A stretch of DNA of 64,000 nucleotides from Ceratodon purpureus (taxonomy: Eukaryota; Streptophyta; Bryopsida; Pseudoditrichales; Ditrichaceae). The translations under genes were made by a program, and so were the position numbers. Positions 3,001 through 60,585 of this stretch are shown in pieces. The stretch covers positions 2,740,474-2,804,473 of the forward strand of contig CM026433.1 of NCBI GenBank assembly GCA_014871385.1. The letters run 5' to 3'. A model generated the notes under the pieces. That model was given only the letters and a program-made list of their open reading frames with translations. It was not told the DNA's origin and made no database searches. Each line of letters begins with the position of its first letter. The stretch's first letter is position 1.

Positions 3001-6000
3001 GTCAACTCTGGTTGGTAACTGAGCCCTTCAGAAGCAAAAGGTCGATGGTTAGTAACAATTGTGCGGATTGAGACCCACTTACATATCATGACAGAGGAAC
3101 ATTAAATACACTAGTTCACATAGTTTAGGACAATGTATACAGTGCATTCACTAAGTACTAAACATGAACCTACACAAAAGGTTTGGGAAAATTATAGGAC
3201 TGGTCTGATTCTCCTGAAGTTACATTAACTTGCTTTACCACGTGCTAGCAAGAGTTTTCTATATAGAGTGCCTCAAATTGGAAGACCAAATTATTGGTTT
3301 GGAAACACATACCTCTACGCAACAATTTCGCCAAAGCTCCTACAATCATCTGATCTTTACTCCCTCTCATTTCATAGTTTGCAAGGCGTTTTAAACCCTT
3401 GAGACAAACATCATCTGCTCTTTTTAGATGCTCAATGTTATGACTTGCAGCATCTACATTTGAAAACGCAAGTAATGCTGGGACAATTCCGTCGTAGCCC
3501 CGTGCCATATACCGTACCTGGCACATTGCAATAGAACCTGTCTTCTTGAATATTCCCAGATTACTTATATAACTCCATGCAGTTGAAACATATTGCTAAC
3601 ACAATAAACAAAGATAGAGTGACAACTGGTGAGAATCGTGAGATCAGCTAGATTAATAAGCAGAAATTCCAAGATCAAGGTTTTGGTAGTAATAGAACCT
3701 ACAATACCTGTTTGTTCACCAAGATGTTAGTGAAAGCCTCAGCAGCTAGGAGACGAGTTTTTGTTAGCCTCTCTTTCCTCATTAACGAGATGAGGACGTC
3801 TAAAGCATGATCAGCTACCTCTAGAATGATTTCACTGTCAGGTTCACCTCCTACATTGGACGTAAGTGCCACCATTAACTTTACCTGCACAGAGATGTCC
3901 AGACATTATAAGTATGTCATAGGTGGATATCTACTGGAAACAAAGACCATCCTTTTTCAAAAAAATTAGTAAAAACAAAAAACAAAAAAAAAACCGAAAT
4001 AATTTGAAAGGGACTGGATTCAGGATGCCAAATGGTATCTTCAGATTTCCGTAAGCATCCACCTTGAACAGAAAATTGAAAAGGGCGATTACCGCAAGCA
4101 AAGAATATTGTGGGTCCTGTGTCTTCGCCAACTTTATAGCATTCGGTATAGCTTCCATAACAATTGATGAACCTGGTGAATATGTGGAAGCTGGTGGAGC
4201 CAAAACATATTTAGAATTTAACATTGCAAGCCGACCACCTGGCGAAGATGCGCACTTGATAAGACGATAAAATCCGTTCAGCACTTTTGAACGAACCGCA
4301 GAGCGTAGGTATGTTACTCCGACAAGTGCTTCTTTATAAATCTGACCATCGAAAATGACATCACTTGATTCTGCTCCTTCAGTACCCACTGCCAACTGTT
4401 CTTCAATTTCTCCAAACCTGAACCAAGATTAAATCAAAAATAGTTATTGCCAGAAACAAAAATATGAAAGTGAATACTTGAATATTTCGGAAATCGCAAA
4501 ATCAAAGCTTCATTCTTAATACCACCATAAATCTTCTTCGAACATCCCACTCCACATGCTATTCTGAAGTCGCAGAATAAAATCGAAAATCCAGATATAT
4601 GTTTGCATGCAGTCTTAAAGTCTTAACACATACAAACTGCTCATTTTGACATGCTATGGAAAATTCAACCTCCCTGTGATTTGTTCTCAGTAGTATCAAC
4701 CCTCCATTCACCAGAAAATAAGCACAGTACAATACTTAATTATATCGATAGCTTACTCATTCAACTTGGGGATACTCGATGGCGACTCAACCTCGAAATC
4801 TCCAGTGGACGATCCAAATGAGACTTGTCGCTCATCGTTCTTCAGTCGAAAGAGCTCCTTCTCATACTCAAGGCCCAGCTTCGAAATGTCTGCAACGACG
4901 AGGCTCATCTCTGGTGGTGTATCTTCTGCTGATCTGTACATAAACCGTAAGGCTATCTGGATGATTCTGACCGCCTCTGTCAATTCTGATGGTTCGAGGT
5001 CCAGAGTGGGATCGATGAGCTCATTGCTTCTCTCTTCAGAATGTAGTTTACGTGCCTGGTGATAGTGCAGCGCCTCTTCCTCGTGAGTAACTGATGACCA
5101 TTGGGACGAACTTGTGGTAAAATTTGACTGTAATAGACATAGAAAAACAGACATAACTCCTAGTACTGTTTCAAAGAAACATACTAGCTAGCAAGTAGAA
5201 ACTCACCCACTCCCCAAGATTATGCTGCTCCTCCGGCAACTTTGGGTCAAAACTTCTCCTCCCACTCACGATCTCAAGAAGCACAACTCCGAAGCTGTAA
5301 ATGTCAAATATCTCGCTTCCTTGTCCCTGTGTTCCATACTCAGGGGCTGAATAACCTCTGCATGACAGACACCAGTATTTATAAATGGATTGGAGAGTAC
5401 CCTTTCGAAGATTACTGACGATAAATTGGGTACCAGAAAGGACCTGCTTGACGTACGGATGAAGGAAACCGAAAATTTTAAGTAATGTTAGATCTATTAA
5501 CTAAGACACAAAGTCACTATTAGGATGTACTCGAAGTCTCGAACAGAGCTTACAGAGTGCTGGCGGAGTCTCGTGGTGATTGAAGTCCACTTCCGTTATC
5601 TGAAGCCAATAAAGCTAGCTGGAAACTAACTTTTGGATTTAGATTCTGATCCAAAAAGATATTGCTTGGTCTTAAGTGACCGTGAATGATCTTTGGTTGA
5701 GCTACAGAATGCAAGTAATGGATGCCAGAAGCCACTCCAAGGTATATATTTCGACGAACACGCCAGGTCAGACTGACCTTCCGCTCATGATCTATAAGAA
5801 TCAAACAAAATAACCATTAAAAAGCCTAATAAAATAGTAGTCCTACTTATCATGCCATTAGACTTGCTTACCATACTTACACCAAAGCATCGACGTAATT
5901 TAGTTAAACATCCGCTGTCAATCAAAATGTTGGTACCGAGAGTCCTCCTGGCTGACCTCGGACTTACCAAAAAGCAATTTATTCAACGTATCATTTGCCA

Positions 6001-6810: not shown

Positions 6811-8646
6811 TTACTTACATGTCATAAGGAGTGCACATTTCAAATGCCTCAACTCTGCACAGATGTCGCAAAAACGTGGGCGCCTACTGGGCTCTGGGCT
6901 CCAGCATGCCTCAATCAATCTTCTCAATCTGTCCGGACATCGATCTGGTAATTGTGGACGGCCACCGTCTAACACCGTCGTCTTCACTTCGTTGGGACTT
7001 AGACCAAAGAATGGAACATCTCCAGTCAAAATCTCAAAGCACACCATTCCAAAGCTGTAGACGTCAACTTTGAATGGATACTTTAATGCAGCCTCAGCCT
7101 GTAACTCTACTTGACCATCATCATTCACAATTTTGATCATTTCTGGCGCCATCCATCTCGTTGTACCCTGGTTCTGAGTCTGGTTGGTGTATGTCATGCT
7201 CTTTTCCTTTGTCCTTGACAATCCAAAATCAGCCACCTTGGCCTGCAAGTAATTGGTTCTCCGACTTGCCTTCATACACTTTACCAATATGTTATGTGAC
7301 TTTAGATCTCTATGCACAATTTGCTTCTCATGGAGAAAAAGCATCCCTTCTGCCACTTGTTGCATGATGTGGACTGCTTCCGAAATGGTGAAAATAGGAT
7401 CAACAGTTCCACGTTCATCCAACTTCTTTTGCATCAGAGAATAGAGGTCGTCATCCATCAACTCCATTATAATGTAACATTTGCGCTCGTCTCTCATGTA
7501 CCAAAGAAGGGATACGATGTTAGGATGATGCAGACCTTCTAAGTTTGAAACCTCGTGAAAGAAAGCCTCGATACTTGGTCCATGGAAAGATTTTTTGGCA
7601 ACTTCAGCTCCCATCCATGATACTTTGTGAACAGTCCCATAAGCACCTTTCCCCAAAATCTCCACTTGTTCCAGGTCCCTACCAAGAACTGCAGGATAAC
7701 TGGATTGGTTTAATCCTTGCAAATTGGGACCCAGATGTTCCCTTTCACCCGTCGATCTCTTTAGTAGAAACGTGGCCAGCTGCCATTCCGCACTACTTGG
7801 TTGGCTCACCTGAATGAGAGCATTCAAGTCCTTATTCAATCTCCGCTTGTCAAGATCAGCCTTCTCTTTAGCAGTTTCAACTTCCACTTCCCTGACACTG
7901 GCAACTTCGGAGAGTGTCAAGACTGGTACTGCTCCAAAAATCTTTCTATTTGCAAAGACGATTTTGCAAATCTCCAAACTGAAACTTAACGAAGATATGA
8001 GCTCCGACACATTTGTCAACGAGATAGCAGATTGAATCCACGCATCTTTGCAACATCCCTGAACAAAGTATTCAACTTCCTCACTCAGCACAAAGAGCAA
8101 CTTCAAAATCTCAAGGGATCGTGCCATGTCTTCAGGCGAAGCACACGTGGAGTGCCATGTGGTAATCAGCTCTAAATACGAGTGTGCGCATCGTACAGTC
8201 ATCTTCAGTTTGTCAACAAGGTATTGGCACTGCTCCTGGTTGAACTTTGGCCCAGTGGAAACCGTAGTCATTCTATCCACTTGCTCCATGCATTTTGTAG
8301 TGAGCTTCAGGTAAAGCTCCGGCGTTTCAGCTTTAAGCAAGCCAACAATCAACAGGCGTGTCATTGCAACATATGTGCTAACCTCATATACAGAGCGGTT
8401 GTCAACGAGAATATATTACAAAGCATATATATGTAAAACGAAGAGCATACATGATTTACGCTTTGATTCAAGCTTGCAGTTGAAGGCTGAGAAGAAGCAC
8501 AAAAAACAAGAAAAAGATCGTGAACATGATGCTAAAACAACATAGTAACTGCCCTACATCTTCCAAGTGGTAGGAGGATTACCAGCATCACCGACTTTCG
8601 TCCCGAAGATCCGTGATAATGTTTTCCTCAAGGTACTTAGAGCCAT
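6811..8646 (-). CDS. TKL-type serine/threonine protein kinase
   Basis: A large exon (8377 to about 6822) encodes about 240 residues of helical N-terminal region and then a full kinase domain. Counting from the Met at 8364, the glycine loop GKGAYG is at about 238-243, the ATP lysine in VAKKSF at about 257, HRDLKSHN at about 351, DFG at 379-381 and GTTRWMAPE at 400-408. All catalytic residues are present, so it should be active; the class is TKL (Raf/MLK-like). A likely first exon is 8646-8558, starting MALSTLRKTLSRIF and joining in phase (89 nt, phase 2) to the big exon. At the 3' end the frame runs through a strong donor (ACAT|GTAAGTAA near 6821). Without splicing it stops at 6811; splicing to an acceptor near 6775 also gives a stop within a few codons. 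Several moss kinases of this kind continue into a second kinase-like domain, so this and the next gene downstream may be one. Confidence 0.85.
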
Positions 8647-14114: not shown

Positions 14115-16606
14115 CTACAAGTAACGAGTTAGCTCTACAGCATATCGCCCCTTCTTTGTCATAACGATTTCTCCCACCTGTGATGCAATCCATTTGTAAG
14201 TATTCCCAAATCTTAGAGACTGAATAAGTAAAACAAGTCTCATTCTTAGGTGAAAACACAACAGTTTGATAACTACGATAAGCCAAGCTAAGGTTGAGCG
14301 TACCTGTATCCTTCCTTTCCCACGAACGGACACTACATCTCCAGTCTTCAAAGACATACTAGTCTTTGTTACTTCTTTCCAGTTGACTCTCACTTCTCCA
14401 CTACTGCTCACACAAGATGTCCATTAGGCTCCAGAAGCTAGAAATAATTCATCTCAAAACAACTCACTTCATATTTGCAGTACTAACAAGAAAGAGTAGT
14501 GGCGTATCCTATTTTAAAACCAATACCACGCACCTGATCAGATCAGCTAATTTGGACCGGGACATACGAAAACCAGCACTGGTCAATGCATCAACACGCA
14601 AAGATGCCTCCACTGACTTGAAAGTGTCTACCCTGAAACAGACGTGTGTGTCAGAAACCATCGACAAAGTTCACAAGCCTCAAATTAAAGGAGGGAAATC
14701 TCGCAGAAGACCAACCTTGGTGCTTTAACTTGAAGTGCACTAAGCGGTATAGCTGTGGTTTGTACTGCTACGTTACGAACCTGAATAGACACTTTAAGAA
14801 TCAGTTTACAAAATAGTTGGCAGAAGGATGCGCAAACCAGACAAGTTGAGCTGATCACTTCAAACTCATACAAAGATGCAAGTTCCAGGAGGATTCAAGT
14901 ATTGTAATGCTAAGGTGACAACTCGTACAAGTTGGGCTGAATTAGTAGGTGGACATACCTGCACAAGAGATGACTGAAAGAACTCAATGAGCTCAGGGAC
15001 CACCAAAATCTGGGCTCCTCTCTCTCCCTGCCGATAACAAACGATTGAAACAATCAGGTCATCAGTATGTCGGAAAATTATAGGTAACAAAGTATAGCCG
15101 TCATTGAGAATATCATGAAAAAATCAAATCCTGTTGTTCCCACTAATCCATCCATACTTGTAACAAACAAATCAAAGCAGGGCAGGATAGAACGTCACAA
15201 AAACTTAGAAAGTGCATAAGATACAGACACCTGCATAATAATGTCGCCAACTTTGTCACGGGTGACCCCAGTTCCCAATATCGACCCAAGGAAGTCGCCA
15301 TGGGAAGCAGTTTCAAACATAAAATTTCCAGAAACGCTGTTTCCAATCGCAAACAAGTGCATGATTAGAACTATGGTCACAACATCATCTCTATAATTAC
15401 AACCCTGTAAATTGAGTTCCGGAAAACAGTTTCCGACATTGGAATCTTAGAAATGAAACCAAATACGGTAGAGGCGACACCACAGACCTTAAGGCTGCTA
15501 CTGCTCCGGGATAACCTGCTTCCCCTCCTTCAATACTACCCGCCTCTATGGCCTCTACATGTCCAACTGAAAGCCGGCACCTCTCTGCCTACCCCAATGC
15601 ACCCATCACATTCCACGCTAACGTCATCAACACCATGAAAAGAATCAGTCCACAGAAATACTCACCAGCACTCAACAATGCTCAACGATTAGAGAGAAAT
15701 GTACAAAAGACCAGACAAGGAGCCACAATGCATCAAGGGCTTCGAAGAGTTCGACACAGAGACGGTACCTGGGAATAGCCACCAGAAATCAAAGCACCCA
15801 CATCAGACAGCTTTCGCACTGCCATTAGGGCATCGTTCAACACTGGTGGGGTGAGAAACGCTGAATGTACGACTTCCCATCTATCTGCCGCGCTTCGTGC
15901 CTGTTGTCACAACAATACTCAATCGTCAGAATTCCACTAAAAGAAAGGGAAAAATCAATATTAGAAGCTCACACCATGTGTGAGACTCTACAACAATGTC
16001 CAAAGAGAAGGAGAGATGGAAAAACTATACCAGCTCAAGGACGCGCGCGACATCATCCACATGGCTTTTATCCACACCCATGAGAAGCTGGTTCTTCTCA
16101 TCCCGTGAAAGCACAGCCGCACGACATAGCCCTGTGGAAGTTGAGCGTTCAATTTGCAGGTTGTTTTACAATTCTCGGAGGATTTCAATTCTAGACACCG
16201 CACTCTGTAACAAGCAGTGCAACATCGTCTCTAACTCCTCACTATTGCAACCACTTATTTCAACATCTTCACATCATTCCTCTCAGAAACTTCTCAATTA
16301 GCCAAAGTGCTTCAATTACTACAGCCAAAGTGCTTCAATTACTACAGCCAAAGTGCTCCAACCCCAACAAACCTCACGGAAACAGAGCAATGAGAAACAC
16401 CAAAACCCAATTCAGAAGAAGCACCTACGTTGCAAGCCCACAAGACATGGCTCACCTGCTTTGTGAAGCGAATAGCCATAACGGAGCTTCGGAGCCTGGA
16501 ACACGAGAAGCTGGGGCACAAACCGGAGAGGGTTAACAGCCACGCTACAGAAGTGGGTCGCCATCCTGTTCGCCTGCACTGCACTTGCCATCGCCATTGC
16601 AATCAC
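14115..16606 (-). CDS. S4 RNA-binding domain protein (YlmH-like), probably plastid
   Basis: Ten exons: 16606-16456, 16131-16031, 15900-15769, 15588-15488, 15336-15231, 15027-14959, 14780-14716, 14632-14534, 14403-14304 and 14177-14115. All junctions agree in phase and give 328 aa. The N-terminus (MIAMAMASAVQANRMATHF) is rich in Ala/Ser/Arg and looks like a transit peptide. The middle matches the cyanobacterial/plastid YlmH-like fold (GGYSQAERCRLSVG, SHGDFLGSILGTGVTRDK, GAQILVVPELIEFF). The C-terminus is a typical S4 domain (VEASLRVDALTSAGFRMSRS, VRVNWK, GDVVSVRGKGR). Plant homologues are nuclear-encoded RNA-binding S4 proteins, and bacterial YlmH is linked to ribosome and translation quality control. 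The plastid ribosome role here is inference. The start may be 16606 or the Met at 16597. It is head to head with the CRM gene. Confidence 0.92.
16301..16356. repeat. 23-bp tandem repeat, about 2.4 copies
   Basis: The unit GCCAAAGTGCTTCAATTACT plus three bases starts at 16301, 16324 and 16347. It lies in intron 1 of the S4-domain gene. No function is apparent. Confidence 0.85.
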
Positions 16607-17547
16607 TCACCATCACTGCAACTCCCTAGGCTGCTCTCAACAAAAACCTCATTTGCTCATGCTCTCCAAAAGAGATGAAGTTGATATCCGGTGGTGTTGC
16701 CTTTTCGTCGCCTTCTGGGTGACCATTCTGAAGATTGCAACTGCTTCAGGATGCAGAGACTTGTGCAGAAATCAGTTCATCAGACCGCAGAACCTCCCAG
16801 ACACGCAGAGAATCAGGTATTGGATTTAAACTTGCACTTGTGACTCCTCACGTCAGTGTACCGGTATGCGTAGAGCAGCGATATTCAACATCGAGGGCTT
16901 CAACAGGTAGTTGATTAATCCTATGTCTGGAGAATCCGCTGAAGGGAATTGTTGCAAATTGAACAGGGTTCTAGTTGCCTCACTAGCTCGAGTTCATTTG
17001 AAGAGAGTTGTCTGGTCGTTTTTGGAGGTTGGCAGCAGGTGAAGGAAGTCTGGGAATCAGAATCTCCTCACAGGCAGTGCTTCTCGTGATATCGTGCTAC
17101 AGTCAGCTTCTGCGGTGCTCAGAGAATTCGAGTGCTCATCGTGATTGACTCAAACATTGGAGGTTTTGATCTCACTTTGATCCAGAGGTTTTTCTTAGAA
17201 CGAAGTTGGTTTCAATCCGGTCAAGGTACTAGTTATTCAACTCTCGACTGTGGGTAAGTCTCTCTGCGGAGCTTTTGATTGAGTTTTTCTTCAGGACTTC
17301 ATTTGTACGATAGCCTCGGTCTACATCTCCCATGTTGGCAGGTGCAGGGTTTAGGGTTTATCAGAGAATTTAAGAACATTAGGACGCAAGAGATGCAATT
17401 CATGCTTCTGGAAGCGTTGTAATTAGCGGTACTGATATGCTGCGAGTGTCTTGAATGGCTTTTGCTCAGGGTTAGGATGTAGAGCTCGATGGCCAAGTTG
17501 GGTGGATACTGGTTGTGGTGAAACAGGGGAAGGAGAATTGAGAAGAG
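16607..17547. promoter_or_regulatory. Bidirectional promoter region between two plastid RNA-protein genes
   Basis: The 941 bp separate the start codons of the divergent S4-domain and CRM-domain genes. Both 5' leaders and both promoters must lie here unless there are distant leader exons. I see no other gene. Shared control is an inference from the arrangement. Confidence 0.6.
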
Positions 17548-20500
17548 ATGGCGTTAGGGTTTACGATAAACCCCACGTATAATTCTCTTTGTGGATTAGA
17601 CCTCCCGTGTTTCCACACTTCCTCGTTGGGTAGCCTCATCTCTCACCGCCCAGTTCTGAAACGTGTGCATTTACCGTGGAGATATCACTCTCCTCGCCAG
17701 CCCAGAGTTTCTGTGCATGCGTCTTCCTTATGGAAGCAGCAAGGATCAGTAAATGAAGAATCAAATGAGGGTAACAGTAGCTCTACTTTTGAACTGTCGA
17801 GCGTCTTTATAGATATTCTGAAGCAACGCAGTGAATCTGGCTTTAGCAATGATGTGGTGGAGCTTGAAAGCAATGGAAGCGGAAGTGATTCTTTCGTGCG
17901 GAGACGAGGAGGTGGCTATGTGGAGGATGAAACAGATTATGAGACGAGTGGTTCATCATCTGACATAGAGGTGAGTCCCTTGTTTGTGTGACTTAGGAGG
18001 ATTGTGCATCGTGCAGAAGTTTTGGTGATCGTAGATTAGCTGCTTTTTGGGGGGCATCAAGTGTTGGTTTTTGATGAAATCATTCTGGAATGCTCCAGGG
18101 AGAAGACTGGCTATGGTCTGGTGGAGAACGGAGAGATTCCAGGACGAGGGACTTGGATGAGGATTCTGGACCTTCACGGAACGCTGCAATGGGACACCGG
18201 CGAGGGGATAGATTAGGTGGACCTAAACTGACGATCGCCAAGTCTTATCCGTCTATACCTGCAAAATTTTCGAAGTACACGAGATGGAAGAACGCAAACC
18301 GAGGGCAATCCCGTTCTGTGAAAGTAAAACAACAACTGAAGGAGAACAATTTACAAAACCAGCAGTATTTCAAAGAGAAGTCTGTTTTCTTCAAGGATTT
18401 CGTGTCTCCTGTTATAAAGCCTGAACAGCCGTGCCAGTTTAGCTATTCAGAGCACCCAAGTGTACCTCCTATTGGATTCCGGGAGCCACTATACTCGCCG
18501 TTCGGACCTGAGAACATGGCAAGGCCTTGGACAGGCAAACGCCCTTATGAGCCCAGGAAGGGGATCCCTCACCCAGAATTTGATTCTTTCAAGTTACCAC
18601 CAGCTGCAATGACGAAGGCCAGATTTGTGCAGCCTCCTGGGCCCTTCGTGGAGGGTACAGGTCCGAAACTGGGACGTACAAGGGAGGAGATATTGGGTGA
18701 ACCTTTAAGCAATGATGAGGTACGGGAGCTTGTAGCGGAGGCTTGCGTCGAGCGCCGGCAGCTTGATCTAGGTATATTTCCTAAGTCCTACGGTTTGCCT
18801 TTCCATGCTCTGGTTTAAGTTTCATCATGCAGATATTACCATTCACATGAACCGCTACTCTCAAAATGTAACTCTCTGTAAATCCTAGTTGAGTTGTGAT
18901 TTAGAAACTCTTGTGACCAGGACCGTGCTATTTTTTTACTTCAAGACTTGCAAAGCAGACATCTGAACTTTTCTTGGTTTTATGTTGTACTTGAAGGGAA
19001 GGATGGGCTGACGCATAACATGCTGGATCTTTTGCATAGACATTGGAAGCGACGACGTGTATGTAGAATTAAATGTTATGGCGTACCAACGGTGGACATG
19101 AGCAACCTCTGTCGTGTGATTGAGGTGTGAGACTTCCCTCAATTCAGACCTTCTATTTGGGGAGAGGATCAAGGTTTTACTCATTGTTGGAGAACAAGGC
19201 AATTTATTTATTTTTCAACATACATTCTCATCTTGTTTGAGGATTGCTGCTGTTTGTTGATTTCTGGAGTGTGTGAAGGGAGCAATGAAGGCCGTTTTTT
19301 GGTGCGATTTTCTTCCTTGATACAGGATAAGTCTGGGGGCAAAATAATACGCCGTTCAAAAAGCATGCTCTATGTTTTTCGTGGACGCAACTACAATTGG
19401 GCCACTCGGCCCAAGATTCCATTAATGCTGTGGAAACCACCCGCGCCTGTTTACCCTCCGGTTGTTCAAAGAGTACCCGAAGGTTTGAGTGTAGAAGAAG
19501 CTGAAAACCTGCGAATGTTGGGGCGGCGCGCTCACTGCCTCTGTCGCTTGAGTAAGAATACTAATGCAATTTTTAGTTTTTGAATTGTCAAGGTTGAAAT
19601 CTTCTAATTACATTGTTGGATATGTTGGTCCTAATTATAAATTCTTAAGAACTCGAATAATCTAAGTATGTTTCATTTTGGGTTAAGCCCGATTGATTTT
19701 GAGAATGATTGGATTTTTACTTGCAAGATGTATAGCAGTTTAACACGTCCAGGTTTTGGTTGCAGAGAAGGCTGGGATGTACCAACACCTAGTGAAGATG
19801 GTGAAAGACGCATTTAAAAATGACGAGGTCGTGAAAGTGGACTGCAGGGAGTTAGATAGAAGTGATATGAAGAAAATCGGTGCAAAACTTAGGGTAAACC
19901 TTCATCAATATGAAACCCTCTACATTTTACTAGCATCTTCGTGGTTAAGCGTTTTGCTATCAGATGTGTTATGTTTCAAATTCAATTTGGAGTGATGTCG
20001 TTGGATCCATTTTCGATGTCTGAAAAAACTTCAATTTCAAAGTGCAACTACTCAGCTTCTACTGCTTTGTTTCTCATACTGCTTTCCCCTATTTTCTGAT
20101 CGGTTGAATTTGCCAACCTGACAGGATTTGGTGCCATGTGTGCCCATTTCTTGCGATAGACACTTTATGATGTTGTGGAAAGGATCAAAGCTACACGATG
20201 AAAGTCAGAAGGGGACTGAAGTGGATACCTCTGGTGCTGAGAAGATTGGTAGTCAGGGACACATAGATAGTGAGTTCATACATTATGAACCAAGATCTGA
20301 TTACAAATCTGAAGACAACGAGCTTCAGGAGCAATTGTATGCTAACATGTCTGACACCACAGATCTTACTTCTGAAAAAGAAAGCTCATCAGACTATGAA
20401 GATCGAGTGAATTGTAACACTAATACTCGAGAAACAGCAGACATTAACATTGTACTCGAGGAACCTGAAAAAGCTATAGTAATGGGTGGTGCCAAAAGTG

Positions 20501-23500
20501 GAGACCAAGTTAAGAAGCTCGCCGTTTCTAATGAGACACGGGACATGAATGTCACTGCTGTCCTTGGAAGTGATGAAGCTGTATTGGAATTTGATAGATT
20601 GTGGGAAGAGGCAATTAAATCCACTGAAACGGTGGTGTTGGATGAATCTGAAGCTGGCCTTGAAAATGTCTTGGAGACTGTCGAGAGTCATAAGAGTGAT
20701 AACCAGAGTTGGGAATTCACTTTGAAGTCATGGGACAAGAATCCTTCAGAGCCAGACAATGAATCTTCAGAGAGGGACGAAGGTGTTGACGAAGATGGGA
20801 GTACTTTGGGAACGTGGGAGGTAACAAGATTCTCGACAGGAACAGAAGTAGATGAATACGAGGAAGACGGTGAGCAGCTTGAGGAAATACGTAAAGCTGA
20901 AGAGTCACTGCCATCCTCCTCGACAGATATTACAGTACCGCAAGATGAGTTCAAGAGGCTGTGCGCACTACGGCTGAAAATTAGGGGTTGGATGAAGATC
21001 GGTACACAAGGAATTACCAGGGGCATTGTGAAGTCAATTCACGGCAAGTGGCTCGTCTCTGAAATCGCAAAAGTGAGATGTATTGTACCAGGATGCAACA
21101 TGAGGGAAATCCACGAAGATCTTGAGGTTAGTCATTATCTGTTCAGCTTCTTTTGTGGAATGTTTCCAAAAGATAAAACTAGGAGTGGCATTGTTGAAGA
21201 AATTGTACTTCGGTATTGAGTATGGTTCATCATGTGCCCTCGTTTCTTCGCTAAATAAGTCAATAATCAATAAAAGTGTTTATCTTGGTGGGTTTGACTT
21301 GCAGAGGTTGACTGGTGGGATAGTTATATGGAGGGAGGGACCTGCAGTGGTGATTTATCGAGGAAAGGATTATGTCCCTGGTTGGATGCGCAAGTTTGAG
21401 GAAAGGGAGGAAGCTTACAGAGAGCGACTGCAGTCTCTTGGCTTGGACGAAGATGATGACAGGATGCAAAGAGATGGTGAACTACAGACAAGCAAGATGG
21501 GTGAGATAGACGTTGATGAGCTATTGGATGATTTGGGGCCGGAATATGAAGACTGGACTGAGGGCGGACGCGTGCCAGTTGATGGAGATTTGTTGCTACC
21601 TCCAAATTCGGGATTTAAGAGTCCCTTCAGGCGGCTGCCGTATGGAGTGAGACCTAGACTTACTAACTTTGAAATGACAGAGATGCGCCATCTAGCTAGA
21701 AAACTTCCTCCAGATTTCGTAATTGGTGGGTATTCGCAGACTGCTTCTTTGTTTGAAGAGCGGATTCATCTGTTGCGACGTTTTTCACTGGTTTGTATTG
21801 CAGTTGAATGCGAGGATTTTACAGAGTTTCCAATTCTTTCTGCCTTCTTTGCATTGACATTGGCGTTGATTCTTGTGCATGATTTCCTTCTGACAATCAG
21901 GAAAACGCCGAGGACTTGAAGGGCTGGCCTCGGCTATTGTGAAGCTGTGGGAAAAGAGCGAAACTGCTAAAGTAGTTATGAAGAGGGGTATCTCAAGAAT
22001 CGATAATGATCGTATGACTGCAGAGCTGCTGGTAATTTGATGCTCCCTAGTCTCTGTATTTCATCAGGAGATTTTGGGAAGAATTAGAGAAAAGGTGTGA
22101 CATTGTTGTGGTGTGCAGAGGCTTACTGGAGGAGACTTGATAGCCCGAAACATGAGCTACATTGCGCTTTTTCGGGGGAATGACTTTCTACCACCAGCAG
22201 TTAAGGATACTTTGGAGGAGAATGACCGTGCTGCCACATCACTGCTGGAGGATGAAGAGAGGGCCCGTTTGGCTGGCTTTCGCAATGCAAGTCGAATTAT
22301 TGATGCACCTTTGAAACCCAGGTACCTTGCAATTAGATGAATGAATTCGCTTAATGGGAATTCACATTTTTAGAGGTGACTTGCATTTGTTATTCTGCGC
22401 GGGTTTTTATGATGCTTAGTGGGAGTTCTCATTCTTCTCTGTTCTTTGAACAGCAACGCAGGGACACTAGCAGAGCTGTTGGAAGAGGAGGCCAGATGGA
22501 ATCCCTGGGAAAATAGCATGGATTGTTCTAATCAAATGATTCTTGCACGGAAAGCTGCAAGAGATCAAGCTTTGCAAAGGATGCACAGAATAACCAATGC
22601 TGTGAGTTCGTCTTACTTCATATGTTCCAAGCATCATGTTCTAAAATTACGAGTACTGATGATAAGCTCAAAATTTATGGCTTCTGTTTATATTCGTGGT
22701 ATTAGATGTTCAATTCGCAGCCATGTCCTACATTCTCAGTATTGGACCACAAAACTCAAGCATGTTGTACTGCACTTCTTTTTGGGTGGTTATTGTCGTG
22801 GTATTGTGACCGGCAGTATGGGGCTCATAATGGCTTGATAGAAAGAGCTTACATTCTAGGCATTGTCTACAATATGCCAAGGAATTCATTAGGGTGTTGC
22901 AAATCAGTACCACACCATCTGGATTCAAAATGAGTACGATCTGATTTGGATATCCTGCTGGATGTTTATTCTTCAGGTTTCCCAGAAGATTGCCAGGGCT
23001 GAGAGAGAGCTACAAAATATCAACTTAAAGATGAGGCCTAAAGATCCGATTGTAGATAGGGAGCAAATTTCAGAGGAGGAAATGTATACTCTGCGGAAGA
23101 TCGGGCTGCGTATGAAGCCATTTCTTCTCCTTGGTAAGATATGGTTCCTCGTTGTTTTCTGATGCGCTTCCTTTCTTTGTCATCATCTTCGTGCAAGGCG
23201 TTGCATGTAGATAAAATGTAGTCACTATAGTTGATTTAGATTCTCCTTCCGTTATAATTTTCCTAAGCTTCCAATTTCTTTAGTGGTTTATCACATTTTG
23301 TTAACTGAATATGCTTTTGATTTGTAAACTTCCCGGTTCCTCTCAGGAAGGAGAGAAGTATTTGGTGGAATTATAGAAAACATGCATCTAAACTGGAAAT
23401 GGAGGGAGCTGGTGAAGATTATTGTGAAGAAAAGCTACTTCATGTATCGGGAAAAGGATGAGGTCGACAAAATAGCCAGGATGCTTGAAACTGAGAGTGG

Positions 23501-24302
23501 AGGGATCCTGGTAGGCATTTGCACCATCCCTGTCGGAGCTGCCATCATTGTTTACCGCGGCAAAAATTATCAGCGTCCCATTGATGGGATAAGCCTAGAA
23601 GGCCTCCCCGACGGACTTAGGCCACGTGGTCTGCTCACAAAGAGGCAAGCCTGGCAGCGCTTCAATCAGAAGCGGCGGAAACTGGTACATGTCTTATTTC
23701 ACGAATACGCATTTACATTCTTTGTCACAGTACCAATTTATTTTATTTTTCGACACACAACATTGGCTTTTGTATGTCCTTGGTTTGACACTATATTGTA
23801 GATTGTTAAATCACTAAACATAGTTGTCACTGCGACTGTGATCGGAATACTCAATAACTGGAACATAGCTCATTAACGAAATCTATTGGTTTTCCATTTT
23901 TTGAAGTTGGTGCACATAACAGGAGGTGTTTAGTCATAAGATCATACGTCTATTATCTGAGCTGAATCGTGATGTTGTTACTATCTCTTTTATATTACTG
24001 ACAGTATTTGCGTTTGTTTGGGCTGACAGTCTTTAGAAAGGCATTTAAGAAAGCTGGAGAGGGATTTCGACATCTTACGAACCGATCTGGTATGTCCTTA
24101 GAATCCTCCTGAGAAGTCCTTGGTCTCGTCCTTAAGTAATTGAGCGCGTTGGAGTCGAGCAGTGAGAATATCCCACAGGTTGACTGGTTGCGGTGGTCCA
24201 TTTTCCTAACAATTGCAAACTGGGCTGACTGACCACAAACAGATGAAATTGGAAGAACAGGATATGAACCTAGACAACGAAGGAGGCAATACTGGAGCTT
24301 AA
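17548..24302 (+). CDS. Five-CRM-domain plastid group II intron splicing factor (CAF-CFM3/CRS1 fusion)
   Basis: Fourteen exons: 17548-17970, 18099-18771, 18997-19124, 19326-19551, 19766-19893, 20125-21126, 21305-21725, 21901-22031, 22119-22321, 22454-22601, 22977-23133, 23347-23684, 24030-24089 and 24243-24302. They total 4098 nt, 1365 aa, with every phase consistent. After a transit-like N-terminus, CRM1 (about 345-450: [40 protein letters not shown]) and CRM2 (about 465-560, ending LVPC..MMLWKG) are typical of CRS2-associated factors CAF1/CAF2. A 240-residue acidic linker follows in the same exon. CRM3 (about 798-895: [28 protein letters not shown]), CRM4 (about 985-1090: [25 protein letters not shown]) and CRM5 (about 1195-1300: [32 protein letters not shown]) have the order and sequence of CFM3/CRS1. 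A short coiled coil ends the protein. CAFs normally have two CRM domains and CFM3/CRS1 three, so the join is odd. Confidence 0.92.
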
Positions 24303-27252
24303 AGAGTCCATCTCGGAGAGTTGATATTGGAAGCCTTTTATCTGTATGCATAAGTTCTCTGACTGTCGCTAGCAGGTGAACAGGATTGAAAAGCAATATG
24401 CTTGCAAAAGTCCGGTTAAGGCAATCCACCTCCACGTCAACTCAAACACATCCACTCCAATTTTTTATTAATCAATCTCATAGTTTCTGAAGATGGCCCA
24501 TCCTTATTGTACAGAAGCCCAGCTTAGGCAACGTGACACTTCCGAATCTGTCAAAGAAATTTCATATGCTAGGATTAGGTCAGCGTGGAATACTAGAGGA
24601 TACCCAGGAACTGTAAGTATCAAAAAAGTAAACATATCTACTAAATGGTTGGATAATGTGCAGTCTCAAATGTGTGTCGACTACTAAAAAATAATTGCCT
24701 TGAGACCGAGTCTGAGTGATTGCAAGCAAGCGAGTGTCACATTTGTGTGTTGAATCTTGTGTCAACTCCTTTCAAGATGTTCATCTTTATCAGTAGGTAC
24801 GGCTCCAAATGCTCCGTGCTTAACGCCTGAAAATACAATTTCAATTTGGCAGATCAGCTTAACAAATTGTGAAAACACCCAAGCTGGTTGATTTCCCTCA
24901 TGAGCACGACTCATCGTGGTAGGTAAACTGTTTACTGTTACAGCCACTGTAATGTTTGTGGAGGCGTCAATGTTGTCGGTTGTCAGTTTGGATCTCGGAA
25001 TGGACACAATCATTCGTTCATGTCCTTCAGGTCTGCTTGTTACGAATGATGCTGAGAATACATGAACAGTACATCTACTGCCTAAATTTGCAGGAGAATT
25101 TTTAAACCGGGTTCAGTTGATTTCTGACACCCGAGGGACGCCGTTTTGAATTTTTGGTTTTACCTCACACCACGCCCTGATTGGCGCATGCTTATTATAT
25201 TTTGGCTTCTCCTTTGCGGCATTCGTATTCCTCCTTTTTCGCTTTCTATACCACACTTGGCCCCTTGAGAGGTGTAGCAGCCTGCAATTTGAATGGGAGG
25301 CAGTATAAACATAGCCATGGAATTCTTTTGACTGCCGATGTTTCATTACACAGGAAGGTCAAAGTAAATACGACCGCCCATTCAGGAATCAACAATATAG
25401 TTACTAGATCGTCGAAGGGTCCTTACAATGCACAGTACATGCACGTTCAGTAATTTTATGAGAACTGTTTGTTGATTGACTTATCTCCCGGCACGACAAT
25501 TTGAGCAAGATTTTGAACTTCGAAATCTCGTTGAATGTGGGCCACTGGGGAAAGTCCAACTCCGACTTTGTCCAGTCAAGAAGGTGATCTTCACAGTAAA
25601 ATATTGTCAAATTTTTAGCATGTACTGCATAAACTTGGTTGCTTCTGATGGGAATGTGCGATATGCTCTTCTTCTATGTAATGCACATAGAGCTTTGGAG
25701 TGTGTGCTCACGACTGCACGCACTGTGACATCACACAACATATTCCCCAAATGGCAATGCTTCCCACGGCATCAAAATGATTCTTCCGAAGCAGCACCAC
25801 GTCAGGAGATAAAATCCCGAAATCACTTGCCTTGTCAGCGCCTTCACCTGTCGTGGCGACAGTTTACATCTCAGGAGCTCCACCAGTCACCCCGGAAACA
25901 GGTTCCGCACTTTCAAACCTTCTCATCCAAAACTTGCCATCGATTACGTTGATTAGAATCTCAGATCCTTGAAGGAAGGCTTGTTTCTTGCTTGTAATAA
26001 AATTTTGCTATTTTTCCCATGCGTAGTCCAGTGGGGATGTTAATGGTTGATTTGACTGAATGCTTTTCTTTTTTTTGGGGTGCGAAGTGGACCAATTTAA
26101 CTGAATGTTTGGAAAAAGCAATCTCTGTTGCAGCAATAGACAATCAACCTATTTCCAATTCCATCCATGACGATGGTGGACGCCGGCCGCTTCGAATGCC
26201 CCGAGATCAGAGTGCCGAGAACATGATGAGCTTGGTGGGAAGTGTGCGAGATTTCAGTCTCATCTTCAGTGTGTTGCTTGTTTGCCGAGCCGGTGCATTG
26301 AAGCCCTCCCGCAAGGTCACGGAGATCGATGCGGGTGGTGCTTCAACAGCTCAGAGCTTCATGCCCGGAGATGAGATCTGAAGCTTTGTGCGGAACGAGT
26401 CAAGAGTGGTGTGCAGCCCCTCCAGGATTTCAATCTTTGGTATAGAGTAGGAGTGCAAGCTCAAGCGATCTGGAGCCGAACTTCCTCCAGGTCATTGCTT
26501 GCTTGGAGCCTCTACTCAAGCCTCTCGGCAAGTCACCATTTTCTTGGATCTGGAGAGTGGAAACGCACATCAGAGGTGATTGTTCATTTTGAATTCGTAT
26601 TTTCAAGCTCGCATTACAACTTATAGATTGTAGAGTGACTTGATACAGTTGAGCTTCGCAATCGTTTTTTGAAGATCTGTCATAAACCTCAGATGTTTAA
26701 GTGATGTGGGCGACCGAACTAGAAACCGCCCATGATTGCAATATGAAAGGCGGACGAAGTGTGTGTCTAGGTTAGTACGCAGCCAAATTTTGAAAAATTA
26801 GATGTGCAGTTTCCAAGAGGTTTTAGCAAATTGGTTGACTAATCGAGTTTTCTCGAGAGGATGACAAATATGTATCAGCAGTGTTTTCCTCCCAAACCAT
26901 ATGAAAGATTTGCAACATCCACAAGTACTAAATGTGGTTTAAATTGAGTTGAATGCAGTTAGATCGGAGACATGTGCATACAATTGCCAGGGCTCAGGCC
27001 GAATTGCGCAAGCAGGGTTTATGGCAATTGAATCCATGATCGGCCATGAAACAGCAGAGTTGTGATGGACAGTCCACCTTCAGCTTGTGCACGGCAGGGA
27101 CGTTGCCTCATCAGCAAAGTAAGTGGTTGACATTGATCACTCTTCCTATGTGCAACTGATTGCCAAGTTTTCAGATGAAACCCAGGTGGAGACCAGTGTC
27201 CCATTGAGAGCATACACAACTTTTGGAGCTGTAATTAAACAGGGAGACAGAA
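24303..27252. other. Intergenic: CRM gene 3' region and VAPYRIN upstream region
   Basis: Nearly 3 kb with short open frames on both strands, none resembling a known protein or having clear codon bias. The left few hundred bases are probably CRM gene 3' UTR. The right part should include the VAPYRIN promoter and leader. No repeat or RNA gene recognised. Confidence 0.45.
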
Positions 27253-28848
27253 ATGGACAAGCTCGTAAGTTTAGATGTGGATGAGGTGAGGATCGCATTC
27301 GCGGTAGGGAAGCGTGTCACTTACAAAGTGCAGATCAAGAGCTTGGTATCCACCTCCCCGATCGCCTACAAAGTGCAAACCACGAGCCCGAAGAAGTTTG
27401 GCGTGAAGCCGCATATAGGCATCCTCAAACCTCTTTCTGCTTCCACCTTCGACATCGTGATGCACCCCCAGCACGAAGTCCCAGAGGATTTCCCCATCTC
27501 CCGTGACAAGTTCATGGTCACCACTATGATGATACCCACAGACCAAGAGCCCCCCACATCCCTCTCCACCCTCAGCGAGTGGTTCGCCACAAAGCGGAAC
27601 AAAGTGTTCGTGGACGTGAAGATCCGCGTGATCTACATCGGAGGGGAAATTCTGCGCCTCTCCGCTGCGAAAGGCTCCCGTGAGTCCATCCAGGACGTGC
27701 TCTCGCGAGGCACGAACGTGAACTCTAAGGACGAGCAAGGCCGCACCGCGCTCAGCATCGCAGCGTTGCGAGGAGACCCTCACATCGTGCAGGAATTGCT
27801 TGAAGCGGGCGCGAATGTGGACGGACCCGCCGGCGCAGGGTTAACTCCATTGCAGGAAGCAGCTTTTGCAGGGCACTCCACAATTGTGACGCTTCTTTTG
27901 CGAGCCAAGGCTGATAAAGAGATTCCTTCACATCCGCGGGGATGGACTGCCCTCCACCTCGCAGCTTCGCGAGGAAGGGTGGGCGTGTTGCGCATCCTGC
28001 TGAAAGCTGGGTCCAACGAGAATGCGCCCGACATGGACTTCCGGACTCCGCTGCACGCCGCTGTAACGGAAGGACATACAAAGGCAGCTCTGATTCTTCT
28101 CCAACATGGTGCGGATGCAAATGCGCAGAGCTGCGATGGTAGAACACCGTTGCACTGTGCTGCTGTGAAGGGGCACTTATCTGTGATCGAGCTGCTGATT
28201 GATTGGGGTGCGTTGAAGGAGGTTAAGGATCGAGAAGGAAAGACCCCATTCGAGCTTGCAGTCGAGAGCGGGCACACTTATGTTCTGGATCCATTGCTTT
28301 TGGGTCAATTCCTCCACAAAGCTGCGAGAGAAGGCAACATTCAGGCCGTCCAGCGGTGCTTAAGCCAAGGCGCGCTCGTGAACGGCTGCGACCAGCATGG
28401 GTTTACGGCGCTGCACAGAGCGGCTTTCAAAGGGCACGAGTCGGTGCTTGTTGTCCTCCTCGACCACGGCGCGGATGTGAACCTCTGCGACCGGGAAGGG
28501 TACACTGGGTTACATTGTGCTGCGATTTCTGGGCATATTGAGGCTGTGGACGTGCTGCTCCAACATGGAGCGGATGTGAACGCGCGCTGTCTGAAAGGCT
28601 CCACGCCTCTGCATGTTTCTTCGGCCATGAACTTCGTGTCTGTCGTGTGCTTGTTGCTTGAATGTGGTGCCGATCGGGCAATCCAAGCGCTTGATGGGCG
28701 CACTGCATATGACATCGCGGTGGAATCTCGGCACTACGATCTTTTCTCTGTGCTTGTCACTCCCTCGCATCTGGAGGATGATGTTGTCTCTGAGATTTGC
28801 ACTCCGCTTGCGAAGGTTTCTCTCAAGGGTAAGGAGATTCTCATCTGA
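27253..28848 (+). CDS. VPY: VAPYRIN (MSP domain + ankyrin repeats)
   Basis: One exon of 531 codons. Residues 1 to about 135 form a major sperm protein/VAP-like domain (VDEVRIAFAVGKRVTYKVQI, FGVKPHIGIL, STFDIVMHPQ), which binds FFAT-type partners and membranes. From about 140 to the end there are 11-12 ankyrin repeats (TALSIAALRGD, TPLHAAVTEGH, TALHRAAFKGHESV, TGLHCAAISGH), with an imperfect one around TPFELAVESGH. Length, domain order and lack of introns match VAPYRIN, a cytosolic protein on mobile endomembrane puncta that angiosperms need for arbuscular mycorrhiza and infection threads. It is conserved in mosses, which do not form that symbiosis, where roles in growth have been suggested. 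The ATG at 27253 is the first in frame and fits the family N-terminus. The body is more GC-rich than its flanks. Confidence 0.93.
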   Translation: MDKLVSLDVDEVRIAFAVGKRVTYKVQIKSLVSTSPIAYKVQTTSPKKFGVKPHIGILKPLSASTFDIVMHPQHEVPEDFPISRDKFMVTTMMIPTDQEPPTSLSTLSEWFATKRNKVFVDVKIRVIYIGGEILRLSAAKGSRESIQDVLSRGTNVNSKDEQGRTALSIAALRGDPHIVQELLEAGANVDGPAGAGLTPLQEAAFAGHSTIVTLLLRAKADKEIPSHPRGWTALHLAASRGRVGVLRILLKAGSNENAPDMDFRTPLHAAVTEGHTKAALILLQHGADANAQSCDGRTPLHCAAVKGHLSVIELLIDWGALKEVKDREGKTPFELAVESGHTYVLDPLLLGQFLHKAAREGNIQAVQRCLSQGALVNGCDQHGFTALHRAAFKGHESVLVVLLDHGADVNLCDREGYTGLHCAAISGHIEAVDVLLQHGADVNARCLKGSTPLHVSSAMNFVSVVCLLLECGADRAIQALDGRTAYDIAVESRHYDLFSVLVTPSHLEDDVVSEICTPLAKVSLKGKEILI

Positions 28849-32770: not shown

Positions 32771-33824
32771 CTTGTCCAGGCAACGCTCACAAGAAACTGG
32801 GAAGATTTGCAGGAAGAGTGGAGAGAATGAAGAGTAGAAGAAAGATGATCTAGTTGAATGTTGATTAACCAAGTTCAAGGGATTTATAACCTAAACGAGC
32901 AAATGAGTCCAGCCTGAATGAGTATACGAATATAACGATAATGCAATGTAATGCTGTCACTAACTCATTATCATGCACAACATATCATGAGGTGATGTTT
33001 AAGCAAATCTGAACACTGATGTTTCAGATTTGCTGAAACATCAAAGGCCATGTGAATTTGCAACAAAAATCTGAATCATCAGTGATCAGAGTCTGAAACA
33101 TCAAAGTCTGGTCGATACAGAGTGAGTGGGCAATCTGAAACATCAAAGTCCATGTGACGGGTAAGTAAAGCTCCTATTTCCAATGCTAATTTGCATACTA
33201 GAAAACATTTCTAGTGCACTGGAGTTGAGTATCTGTTGACATAGGTGTTGGTTTTGAATCCCCTTGGTTTGGTTTTGGATCCCCTTGGTTTTCTACATTC
33301 TGCAGTAAAGATAACGAATCTAGATTCCAGACGAGATTTTGACGACACAGCAGCCGATGGCTACTTTAAAACTAGCTATCAGTTGATTACAAGAGACAAA
33401 TGAATCCAATGAAAGGACATTCACCACATTCATATCATCAATAACCATGATTCAAGCCGCCATTGTAGTCCCAACCCCAAATAATGAGAACAAAATGTAA
33501 GTGGCACTGGTTCAATCATCTCTTTCGTATTACAATGATCATGTCAAATTCCACACAATCAATTCGATACATCCAACACTATACAATATGTCACACCAAC
33601 TAGCCAGCAAGGATTTGTGGAAGTCCCACCACTCCCCAATGGCCATAACCTCGCTACCACAGTCTATTACGACCTCATACAATCCACCAACTTATGTCAT
33701 TTAGTTTTACCCCTATACAAAAGCTACAAGAATTCAACGGACTGGTTTCACAGATCAAGCAGAAATACAAAATACTTTAAATTTCTGATGCATGTGTTGA
33801 TCGATATCGATCACGACGACGAGC
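32771..33824. other. Intergenic, upstream of DUF3223 copy B and downstream of the LTI65-like gene
   Basis: No gene seen. It contains the short repeated sequence listed at 33017-33148. The right third probably holds the 3' UTR of the LTI65-like gene. Confidence 0.4.
33017..33148. repeat. Palindrome and three copies of CTGAAACATCAAAG
   Basis: A perfect 11-bp inverted repeat (TGATGTTTCAG, 5-bp loop, CTGAAACATCA) lies at 33017-33043. Its right arm is the first of three direct copies of CTGAAACATCAAAG starting at 33033, 33093 and 33135. It lies about 250-380 bp upstream of the DUF3223 copy B start, so a regulatory role is possible but unproven. Confidence 0.6.
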
Positions 33825-36076
33825 TCACTGAGTAGCGGTAGTGGTGGTTGTGTCGGAAGGAGTGACTCCGGCGTCGTGGGGGTGACTTTCAGGCGCCTTC
33901 TGCGGATATCCCAACATGCCAGTGAGCTTGCCGAGGATGCCAGGATTGGTTTCATCATGGGCTGCGCCGGTGGGCGTGTTGGCAGGAGCAGTCAATCCAC
34001 TCAGACTGTCAGTGATCTTCTCGCTGAGCGCCTTGTGCTCATCCTTAGGCGTCGTGGCGTCAGCAACGGTGTCCTTCGCCCTCGTCGCGTAATCCTTCGT
34101 GGTATCGGTGGTGCCCTGAGCAGCGTCCGCGGTCTTGTCATACGCGCTGCTCGCGTAATCCTTCGTGGTGTCGGTGGCGCCCTGAGCAGCGTTCGCGGTA
34201 TTGTCATACGCGCTGCTCGCGTAATCCTTCGTGGTGTCCGCAGCGCTGCCCGTCGTGTCCATGGTGGTATCCTTGGCGCCCGCTGCGTAATCCTTCGTGG
34301 TGTCCACACCAGTACCCGTCTTGTCCTTCGTGGTGTCCACTGTGGATCCGAAGTAGCCCTTCGCCTGGTCCATCAGGGACGGTCCCTGAGAAGGCTGGTT
34401 CATGCCCGTCTTCTCCTTTGTGGTGTCCACCGCAGATCCGAAGTAGCCTTTCGCCTGGTCCACCACGGACGGCCCCTGAGAAGGCTGGTTCATGCCCGTC
34501 TTCTCCTTTGTGGTGTCCACCGCAGATCCGAAGTAGCCTTTCGCCTGGTCCATCACGGATGGCCCCTGAGAAGATTGGTTCATGCCCAACTTGTCCGCAA
34601 CCGTGTCCTTCGCTGCGGTCGCGGTGTTGCTCGCCTTCTCTGTGTACGTCTCGGAATCGTCCGTCGCGTTATTCAGATCTGCCGCCTTTGATTGCGCAGC
34701 GTCTTTCGTCCCGTACGCCGTATCTGTACCAATTTCCAAACCCAAGCGCCATGTCAACTCTTGATCAAAAAGATTTTTTCACCCATGAATTTGTGCATGA
34801 ATGCCTATGGGATAATTTACCTTTCGTTTGATCGACGGCCTCGCTGCCCTTCTCAGCGACGGCGTCCTTGGTCTCTCCAGCACGGTTGTAGCCTCCACGA
34901 CCAAACTCCTCGGCTTTCCCGGCGGCGTCCGAAGATGCATCCGATGCCTTCTCAGTGACGGGCTTCTCGTCATTGTCATCATCGTTGGACATGGCGCCGA
35001 CGCCCACCGCGCCCGCGGTGGCAGCGGCGCCGCCGTACATGGCGTCCTTGGCGCCCTGAGACATTTCGGAAGCTTTGTCGGTTGCAGATGGAGTCGATGA
35101 ATCGTTGAGGCTGAGTCCGCTCATGTCGGGAGGAGTCGAATCAGTTTCTTGCGATCCAGATTTTCCCTGGCTCGGGTAGGTTCCAAACTCACGAGGAACC
35201 GACGCCGGGCCAGTGTAAGGAGTTGTTTGGACGGCGGGCGATGACAAATCCTGCCAAACACATCAATAATCACAACCATTTCAATCTCACAATCTCACAC
35301 TTATACACCCATTATCTGATAGTAAAATTCATATCATTCTATCCTCCATCATTACTTCGTAGAATCCAAACTTACATCACTGCCGTCCTCTTCGTCATCC
35401 TCCTCCTCACCAACAGCACCAGTGGGCGTCGTCGGCGTACCATCAGTGTTCTTCTTCTTACCAACTTTCGACTTAATCTTCGACCCGGCCTTCTTCGTCT
35501 TATCCTTCAGCTTACCCAAGATCCCCGACTTCTTCTCACTCCCCTGGTAGTTCGGGCTGTTCGGGTCGATGTTGTCATACGACTCCTCTGTCGTCAACCC
35601 AGTCTGCTGTTCACCTGAAAGCACCAAACTCCACCATACATTAAATCAACCAAACCAGACACAGTCACAAAATCATCAACGCTAAAACCAAGTACATAAA
35701 TTCACCAAGATAGCAGTTTCCATACACCAGTATCGTCCACTCCACTATGAGCTTGCAACTATCAGACTATCTGAGCCCCCACCATCATCAAAAATAAACT
35801 CATCCACTCTAATCAAACCGACAAAGTTATAACATATTCATTGACCATCTGAAAACCAACATAACTACACAAAAGGGGCAGTTTCCATGCCTACCACCGT
35901 TCCTATTTTCCACTGAGATTTAACTATTCCTCAATTTGTTTGGACACTTGATCTCTCTACTACCAGTCCGATGGGTTGAACTTCCAGTAATATGGAAACC
36001 GTCCCTGTTTGAAACCATGGTGCATAAAATCTGGATGAGTACCTGGGGTGATGGTGGTAGTCTCATACTGCGACAT
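33825..36076 (-). CDS. LTI65/CAP160 (RD29)-like desiccation/cold stress protein with tandem repeats
   Basis: Four exons: 36076-36043, 35614-35376, 35250-34821 and 34723-33825, 533 aa with consistent phases. It starts MSQYETTTITPGEQQTG. A lysine-rich stretch (KKSGILGKLKDKTKKAGSKI) is followed by an acidic run EEEDDEED and then PYTGPASVPREFGTYPSQGK, the layout of the LTI65/RD29B/CAP160 family. The C-terminal half has LEA-like repeats: three 30-residue units (MNQPSQGPSVVDQAKGYFGS..) and several DTTKDYASSAYD units. It then ends with an amphipathic KALSEKITDSLSGL segment and a Thr-rich tail. The protein is hydrophilic, lacks membrane segments and is predicted disordered. The family is induced by ABA, cold and drought; its molecular function is unsettled. 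ABRE/G-box and DRE motifs lie upstream. Family assignment is by composition and short motifs, so moderate. Confidence 0.75.
34314..34583 (-). repeat. 90-bp in-frame tandem repeat, three units
   Basis: Three head-to-tail copies of a 30-codon unit (MN-PSQGPS--DQAKGYFGS-VDTTK-KTG). Copies 1 and 2 are nearly identical at DNA level and copy 3 is more diverged. This suggests recent expansion by unequal exchange inside exon 4 of the stress-protein gene. Confidence 0.9.

Positions 36077-54720: not shown

Positions 54721-60585
<5,865 letters not shown>

Follow-up and report, generated by a model that had tools for sequence, protein, structure and literature searches.

A moss gene with five CRM domains in one reading frame, a probable fusion of CAF-type and CRS1/CFM3-type splicing factors

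INTRODUCTION

In the passages cited here, the CRM proteins of plants contain between one and four copies of the CRM domain (PMC3927076, PMC9497791), in which the GxxG motif has a part in RNA binding (PMC9275481). Four plant CRM subfamilies have been distinguished, and the CAF members of rice all contain two CRM domains (PMC7072668). The same source gives three CRM domains for OsCRS1 and OsCFM3 and four for CFM2; the sentence in which it treats the CRS1 subfamily is garbled, and the number four is that of its introduction. Four is also the number reported for rice OsCFM2/YL4, a protein of 1013 amino acids (PMC11351240).

The CAF and CFM proteins have been found together. CFM2 is present in particles with CAF1 and/or CAF2, CFM3 co-immunoprecipitates with CAF1, CAF2 and RNC1, and the flowering-plant introns that require CRS2/CAF also require CFM2 or CFM3 (PMC9275481). 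The initial annotation of the locus described here had held that CAF and CFM3 act on overlapping sets of introns, and on this point the cited passages go further, with both co-immunoprecipitation and a joint intron requirement. Another source describes CFM3 as associated with CAF1/CAF2/RNC1, yet elsewhere in its text names the CAF-CFM3 association as something to examine (PMC9497791). For the moss Physcomitrium, the cited part of a 2022 review states that CRS2, CAF1, CAF2 and CFM2 were not identified there (PMC9459714). Among the matches listed in a search of the open-licence literature (annotated genomes being outside its scope), none dealt with a CRM fusion, with bryophyte CRM proteins or with a protein of five CRM domains.

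Here, we describe a gene of the moss Ceratodon purpureus in which five CRM domains are encoded in one reading frame. Its layout fits a CAF-type part followed by a CRS1/CFM3-type part.

RESULTS

A 14-exon gene encodes five CRM domains

The window analyzed is a stretch of 64 kb (64,000 nucleotides), in which the gene occupies a little less than 7 kb (Table 1). When the gene model was rebuilt from the raw sequence, the coding sequence of 4098 nucleotides translated into 1365 amino acids followed by TAA, all 13 introns were of the GT-AG type, and no internal stop was found. The 14-exon, in-phase model of the initial annotation was thus reproduced. An in-frame stop lies immediately 5' of Met1, and the stop-to-stop frame starts at 17542. 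The acceptors of exons 13 and 14 scored -0.4 and -2.4, respectively, and both exons lie outside the CRM domains. Since these two exons have weak acceptors and no support from the intron register described below, the extreme C-terminus is the least certain part of the model. A search of the 64-kb window against Rfam gave no matches at the gathering thresholds.

The Pfam family PF01985 (CRS1_YhbY) matched the full protein in five stretches (E 1.8e-76), the best of them being CRM3. Each CRM region was also scanned alone, and the protein coordinates in Table 1 were computed from the scanned pieces. Scanned singly, all five regions scored 52.3 to 59.8 bits against a Pfam cut-off of 27 bits, which confirms that one open frame carries five CRM domains, as had been claimed. 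The protein is a member of the CRM (PF01985) family, for which at least one domain above the curated cut-off is required, and with five domains it exceeds the published plant range. Pairwise identity among the five domains was only 18 to 30%: CRM1 and CRM2 were 18 to 26% identical to CRM3, CRM4 and CRM5, and 18% identical to each other. In the five-domain alignment, the canonical GxxG loop was found only in CRM1 and CRM3.

Table 1. Features of the five-CRM gene (positions in the window; aa, amino acids)
Feature	Position	Strand	Description
Whole coding span	17548..24302	+	14 exons, 1365 aa; GT-AG throughout, in phase, single terminal TAA
N-terminal segment, about 58 aa	17548..17721	+	Plastid-transit-peptide-like composition; composition only, length guessed
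Exons 1-5	17548-17970, 18099-18771, 18997-19124, 19326-19551, 19766-19893	+
Exons 6-10	20125-21126, 21305-21725, 21901-22031, 22119-22321, 22454-22601	+
Exons 11-14	22977-23133, 23347-23684, 24030-24089, 24243-24302	+
CRM1, aa 344-427	18705..19382	+	Exons 2-4; PF01985 55.4 bits alone; loop GKDG
CRM2, aa 462-545	19485..20181	+	Exons 4-6; PF01985 56.2 bits alone; loop KKAG, lacking the first Gly of GxxG
Exon 6	20125..21126	+	CRM2 end, linker and CRM3 start in a single open frame; 334 stop-free codons
Linker, aa 547-795	20185..20931	+	249 aa, acidic; in-frame stops 0
Candidate CAF-type CRS2-binding motif, aa 679-700	20581..20646	+	C-terminal to CRM2, as in CAFs
CRM3, aa 800-879	20944..21361	+	Exons 6-7; PF01985 59.8 bits alone; loop GTQG
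CRM4, aa 979-1063	21659..22175	+	Exons 7-9; PF01985 52.3 bits alone; loop GKRR then G
CRM5, aa 1193-1284	23070..23558	+	Exons 11-12; PF01985 58.6 bits alone; loop GRRE
Introns 2, 4, 7, 11	within 18772..23346	+	Phase 1, alignment column 24, at the GxxG loop; CRM1, CRM2, CRM4, CRM5
Introns 3, 5, 6, 8	within 18772..23346	+	Phase 0, alignment column 72, before the GG strand; CRM1, CRM2, CRM3, CRM4

Several other features were noted in the window. A short tandem array (16300-16361; 23-nt unit, 2.7 copies) lies some 1.2 kb 5' of the start codon. On the minus strand, a run of open frames at 451-5187 may represent exons of one large gene; its piece at 451-1083 gave a weak match, below cut-off, to the ribosome-biogenesis family RIX1, and two other pieces of the run that were scanned gave none. 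The minus strand also carries a protein kinase open frame (6814-8415) and a fragment of TIP49 (RuvB-like; 56705-57058). On the plus strand, an open frame of 537 amino acids (27235-28845) encodes an MSP (Motile_Sperm) domain followed by ankyrin repeats. Long overlapping open frames occupy both strands at 33801-35262, among which the minus-strand frame at 33828-34778 is late-embryogenesis-like by eye and had no Pfam match at E 0.01.

Introns occupy two registers that are common to both halves

The five CRM domains were aligned without reference to introns, and the introns were mapped afterwards. Eight of the 13 introns fall inside CRM domains, and they do so at only two alignment columns (Table 1). 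This register was retained in all 10 re-alignments, for which five MAFFT settings were combined with two choices of domain border. When introns were placed at random, an exact cluster of four was obtained in none of 300,000 trials, and in 55 of 200,000 trials the largest group of same-phase introns within 6 nt had four members. The column-24 intron is absent from CRM3, and the column-72 intron is absent from CRM5. Because CRM3 lacks the column-24 intron, exon 6 runs unbroken.

Intron 5 has the lowest-scoring donor of all 13 (-2.4, scored leave-one-out) and a modest acceptor (1.6). Despite the weak donor, the splice sites that flank exon 6 are supported, since introns 5 and 6 each belong to the column-72 type. 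Two exact intron registers that extend across both halves of the protein indicate a common descent of their CRM domains from a single ancestral module that carried introns. Among the titles listed in a search of the open-licence literature for CRM intron positions, none had the introns of CRM genes as its topic.

Exon 6 is open from CRM2 through an acidic linker into CRM3

We then consider the exon in which the two halves meet. The 747 nucleotides of the linker contain no in-frame stop, with 8 and 39 stops in the other two forward frames. In 2000 dinucleotide-preserving shuffles of the linker, none had any open forward frame, and the mean minimum was 13 stops. The claim that exon 6 continues from CRM2 through an acidic linker into CRM3 therefore stands. 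With codon log-odds trained on the rest of the gene, the linker averaged 0.151 per codon in frame against a best-frame maximum of 0.017 across 15 non-coding stretches, a contrast that is flattered, as these stretches overlap the non-coding training set. The score also discriminates frames poorly: frame 2 of the linker scored 0.115, and for the coding control aa 1-249, one of three, the true frame gave 0.054 and frame 2 gave 0.114. Given the poor frame separation and the training overlap, the codon log-odds back a coding linker weakly, and the frame call is carried by the absence of stops. A Pfam scan of the linker piece aa 546-794 gave two matches only, both below cut-off.

We also scored the 58 GT and 92 AG sites inside exon 6. 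The best internal donor, at 20820, scored 6.7, which is above exon 6's own donor (4.9) and above 10 of the 13 model donors; real splice sites were scored leave-one-out and internal sites with the full matrix, so that the two sets of scores are roughly comparable. If the 20820 donor were paired with the acceptor at 21305, 306 nt (20821-21126) would be skipped in frame, with the loss of aa 759-860, which is most of CRM3. The 20820 donor is thus a possible source of an alternative isoform that still joins both halves, with no split.

The only transit-like N-terminus scored is at Met1

A plastid transit peptide is expected to have few acidic, several basic and many Ser/Thr residues. The first 50 amino acids of the protein contain 1 D/E, 5 R/K and 9 S/T. 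After each of eight further Met residues, at aa 476-810, the next 50 amino acids contain 7 to 13 D/E. Among the nine Met residues scored by this composition measure (Met1 and the eight up to aa 810), transit-like composition was therefore found at Met1 only. CRS1 and CFM3 are separate organelle-targeted proteins, whereas none of the Met residues scored gives the C-terminal half here a transit-like start; by composition, the targeting N-terminus that a CRS1-subfamily protein should have was not found at aa 476-810.

These results bear on whether two overlapping or adjacent genes, one CAF-type and one CRS1/CFM3-type, are expressed separately, the fusion being a product of the gene model or of rare read-through. 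Separate proteins are the sole state in the literature passages cited (PMC9275481, PMC7072668, PMC3927076, PMC9497791), and the strength of the 20820 donor relative to that of exon 6 makes alternative splicing possible. However, the skip from 20820 to 21305 would leave both halves joined. The linker frame is stop-free, and introns 5 and 6 are so short (231 and 178 nt, respectively) that scant intergenic space would be left between two genes. To make the CAF-type part alone, a cryptic or unseen terminal exon would have to be used, since retention of intron 5 leads to a stop at 19995 that cuts CRM2 short. Likewise, separate targeting of the C-terminal half would call for a first exon that is not seen here, as none of the internal Met residues scored starts a transit-like stretch. 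Two separately expressed genes are accordingly unlikely in our view, and we infer a single transcript.

The 2+3 layout fits a CAF-type part and a CRS1/CFM3-type part

The N-terminal half is taken by us to resemble Arabidopsis CAF2 closely, and the C-terminal half to resemble CFM3/CRS1. By count, the N-terminal half has exactly the two CRM domains of a CAF, and the C-terminal half has three, within the three or four of the CRS1 subfamily; the whole protein, with five, agrees with neither. The 2+3 layout fits CAF plus CRS1/CFM3, a putative assignment made from architecture. The fusion of CAF and CFM3/CRS1 put forward in the initial annotation is thus borne out as to the single frame, the five CRM domains and a 2+3 arrangement equal to the published architectures, while its subfamily labels are putative ones based on architecture, with CFM3, CRS1 and CFM1 taken together.

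The segment aa 679-700 presumably resembles the CAF motif for CRS2. We regard it as a candidate for binding CRS2. In CAF1 and CAF2, as in the N-terminal half here, two CRM domains are followed by a C-terminal tail, and the tail binds CRS2 in rice. A 22-amino-acid CRS2-binding motif in CAF is known from a secondary mention (PMC8657633). In OsCAF1, CRS2 binding was assigned to residues 387-584 rather than to the two tail blocks of highest conservation (PMC6770308), which weakens a claim of CRS2 binding that is based on the motif.

The known CAFs stop after the tail, OsCAF2 with 608 amino acids (PMC7437035) and OsCAF1 with 701 (PMC6770308), whereas the chain here adds three CRM domains. OsCAF2 is encoded in six exons (PMC7437035), which may be compared with exons 1-6 of the moss gene. 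OsCRS1/AL2 has three CRM domains, like the C-terminal half here, and nine exons (PMC5049385), which may be compared with exons 6-14. With exon 6 common to both parts, the sum 6+9-1 gives the 14 exons of the gene; this is what would result from a CAF-type gene, at its last exon, being joined with a CRS1-type gene at its first exon, and it is suggestive only. The published exon counts conflict, with 2 to 11 exons for each of the 14 rice CRM genes in one source (PMC7072668) and 13 exons for OsCFM2/YL4, one of the 14, in another (PMC11351240), so that the sum may be a coincidence.

By sequence, the N-terminal half had four weak matches in the PDB, the best being 1rq8 (E 0.011), which we take to be a YhbY-type protein, and the linker with the C-terminal half had one chance-like match (E 2.7). 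A pattern search of viral contigs with each half gave 1 and 4 matches, and a pattern search of genome contigs with the CRM4 region gave 28; none of these was a relative.

An enlarged CRS1-subfamily protein, a five-CRM relative of the four-CRM CFM2 that arose by internal duplication and has no CAF ancestry, would also combine five domains in one chain. CFM2 does exist with four CRM domains (PMC7072668, PMC11351240), which is the largest count in the passages cited, and the intron positions common across all five domains mean that domain copying occurred at some time. The identities of CRM1 and CRM2 to CRM3-5 and to each other are, however, too low for recent copying. The protein here has five CRM domains in 1365 amino acids compared with four in 1013 for rice CFM2, and its linker of 249 amino acids divides it 2+3, a split that is not among the features described for CFM2 in the cited passages (PMC11351240, PMC7072668). 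Together with the apparently CAF-like N-terminal half, these points make an internal duplication improbable.

Least probable of these readings is an assembly chimera that joined two distant genes in the exon 6 linker: the gene rests on a single assembly sequence, and exon 6 has an imperfect 23-nt direct repeat (78%; 20624-20646 and 20974-20996), but the 64-kb window contains no Ns, the gene contains no tandem array, the repeats found across the gene are all short and inexact (direct, 17 to 23 nt and 78 to 89% identical; inverted, 18 to 20 nt and 83 to 95% complementary), and an accidental join would be in frame about one-third of the time and would need stop-free sequence on both sides.

DISCUSSION

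The reading that we favor, and hold to be likely, is that one nuclear gene encodes a single-chain plastid splicing factor for group II introns, with five CRM domains, in which a CAF-type part and a CRS1/CFM3-type part are fused. Domains 1 and 2 with the start of the linker would be the CAF-type factor and would include a candidate docking segment for CRS2, the peptidyl-tRNA-hydrolase-like partner that the CAF-type part is predicted to dock. Domains 3 to 5 would be the three-CRM factor of the CRS1/CFM3 type.

The likely origin of such a gene is a head-to-tail fusion of a CAF-type last exon with a CRS1-type first exon, in which the upstream gene would have lost its stop and the downstream gene its start and transit peptide. 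We infer this direction in preference to an ancient fission. A single transit peptide would import the whole chain into the plastid, and the acidic linker would tether the two parts. The chain may then occupy two sets of sites on plastid group II introns simultaneously, bring CRS2 to these introns and fold their RNA for splicing. If the protein is left uncleaved, as we presume, the two parts are held in fixed stoichiometry and are present simultaneously on one intron. This would amount to a fixed 1:1 dose of activities that are built from separate subunits in flowering plants. In the chloroplast ribonucleoprotein complexes of CRS2-CAF and CFM3, as the cited passages describe them, the same activities act on common introns, but as separate subunits, whereas here the link would be covalent.

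A further reading goes beyond this, and we advance it as tentative and rather doubtful. The fused protein may replace separate CAF and CFM3 proteins as a single-chain platform for intron folding, with CRS2 docked in the middle of the chain. The fused state may also be old, in which case vascular plants would have split an ancestral gene with several CRM domains that was itself made from a repeatedly copied intron-bearing module.

The common intron register provides a marker for the origin of multi-CRM proteins. The five-CRM fusion would lie beyond the one-to-four-CRM plant proteins described in the cited passages (PMC3927076, PMC9497791). A natural covalent link between CAF and CRS1/CFM3, if true, would mean that both act on one intron simultaneously and tolerate a 1:1 ratio. 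If transcripts confirm the gene, nature has already joined two components of a splicing apparatus that is still poorly understood, and a fused gene of this kind would help to explain where CRS2/CAF/CFM2-type functions are located in non-flowering plants (compare the cited part of PMC9459714).
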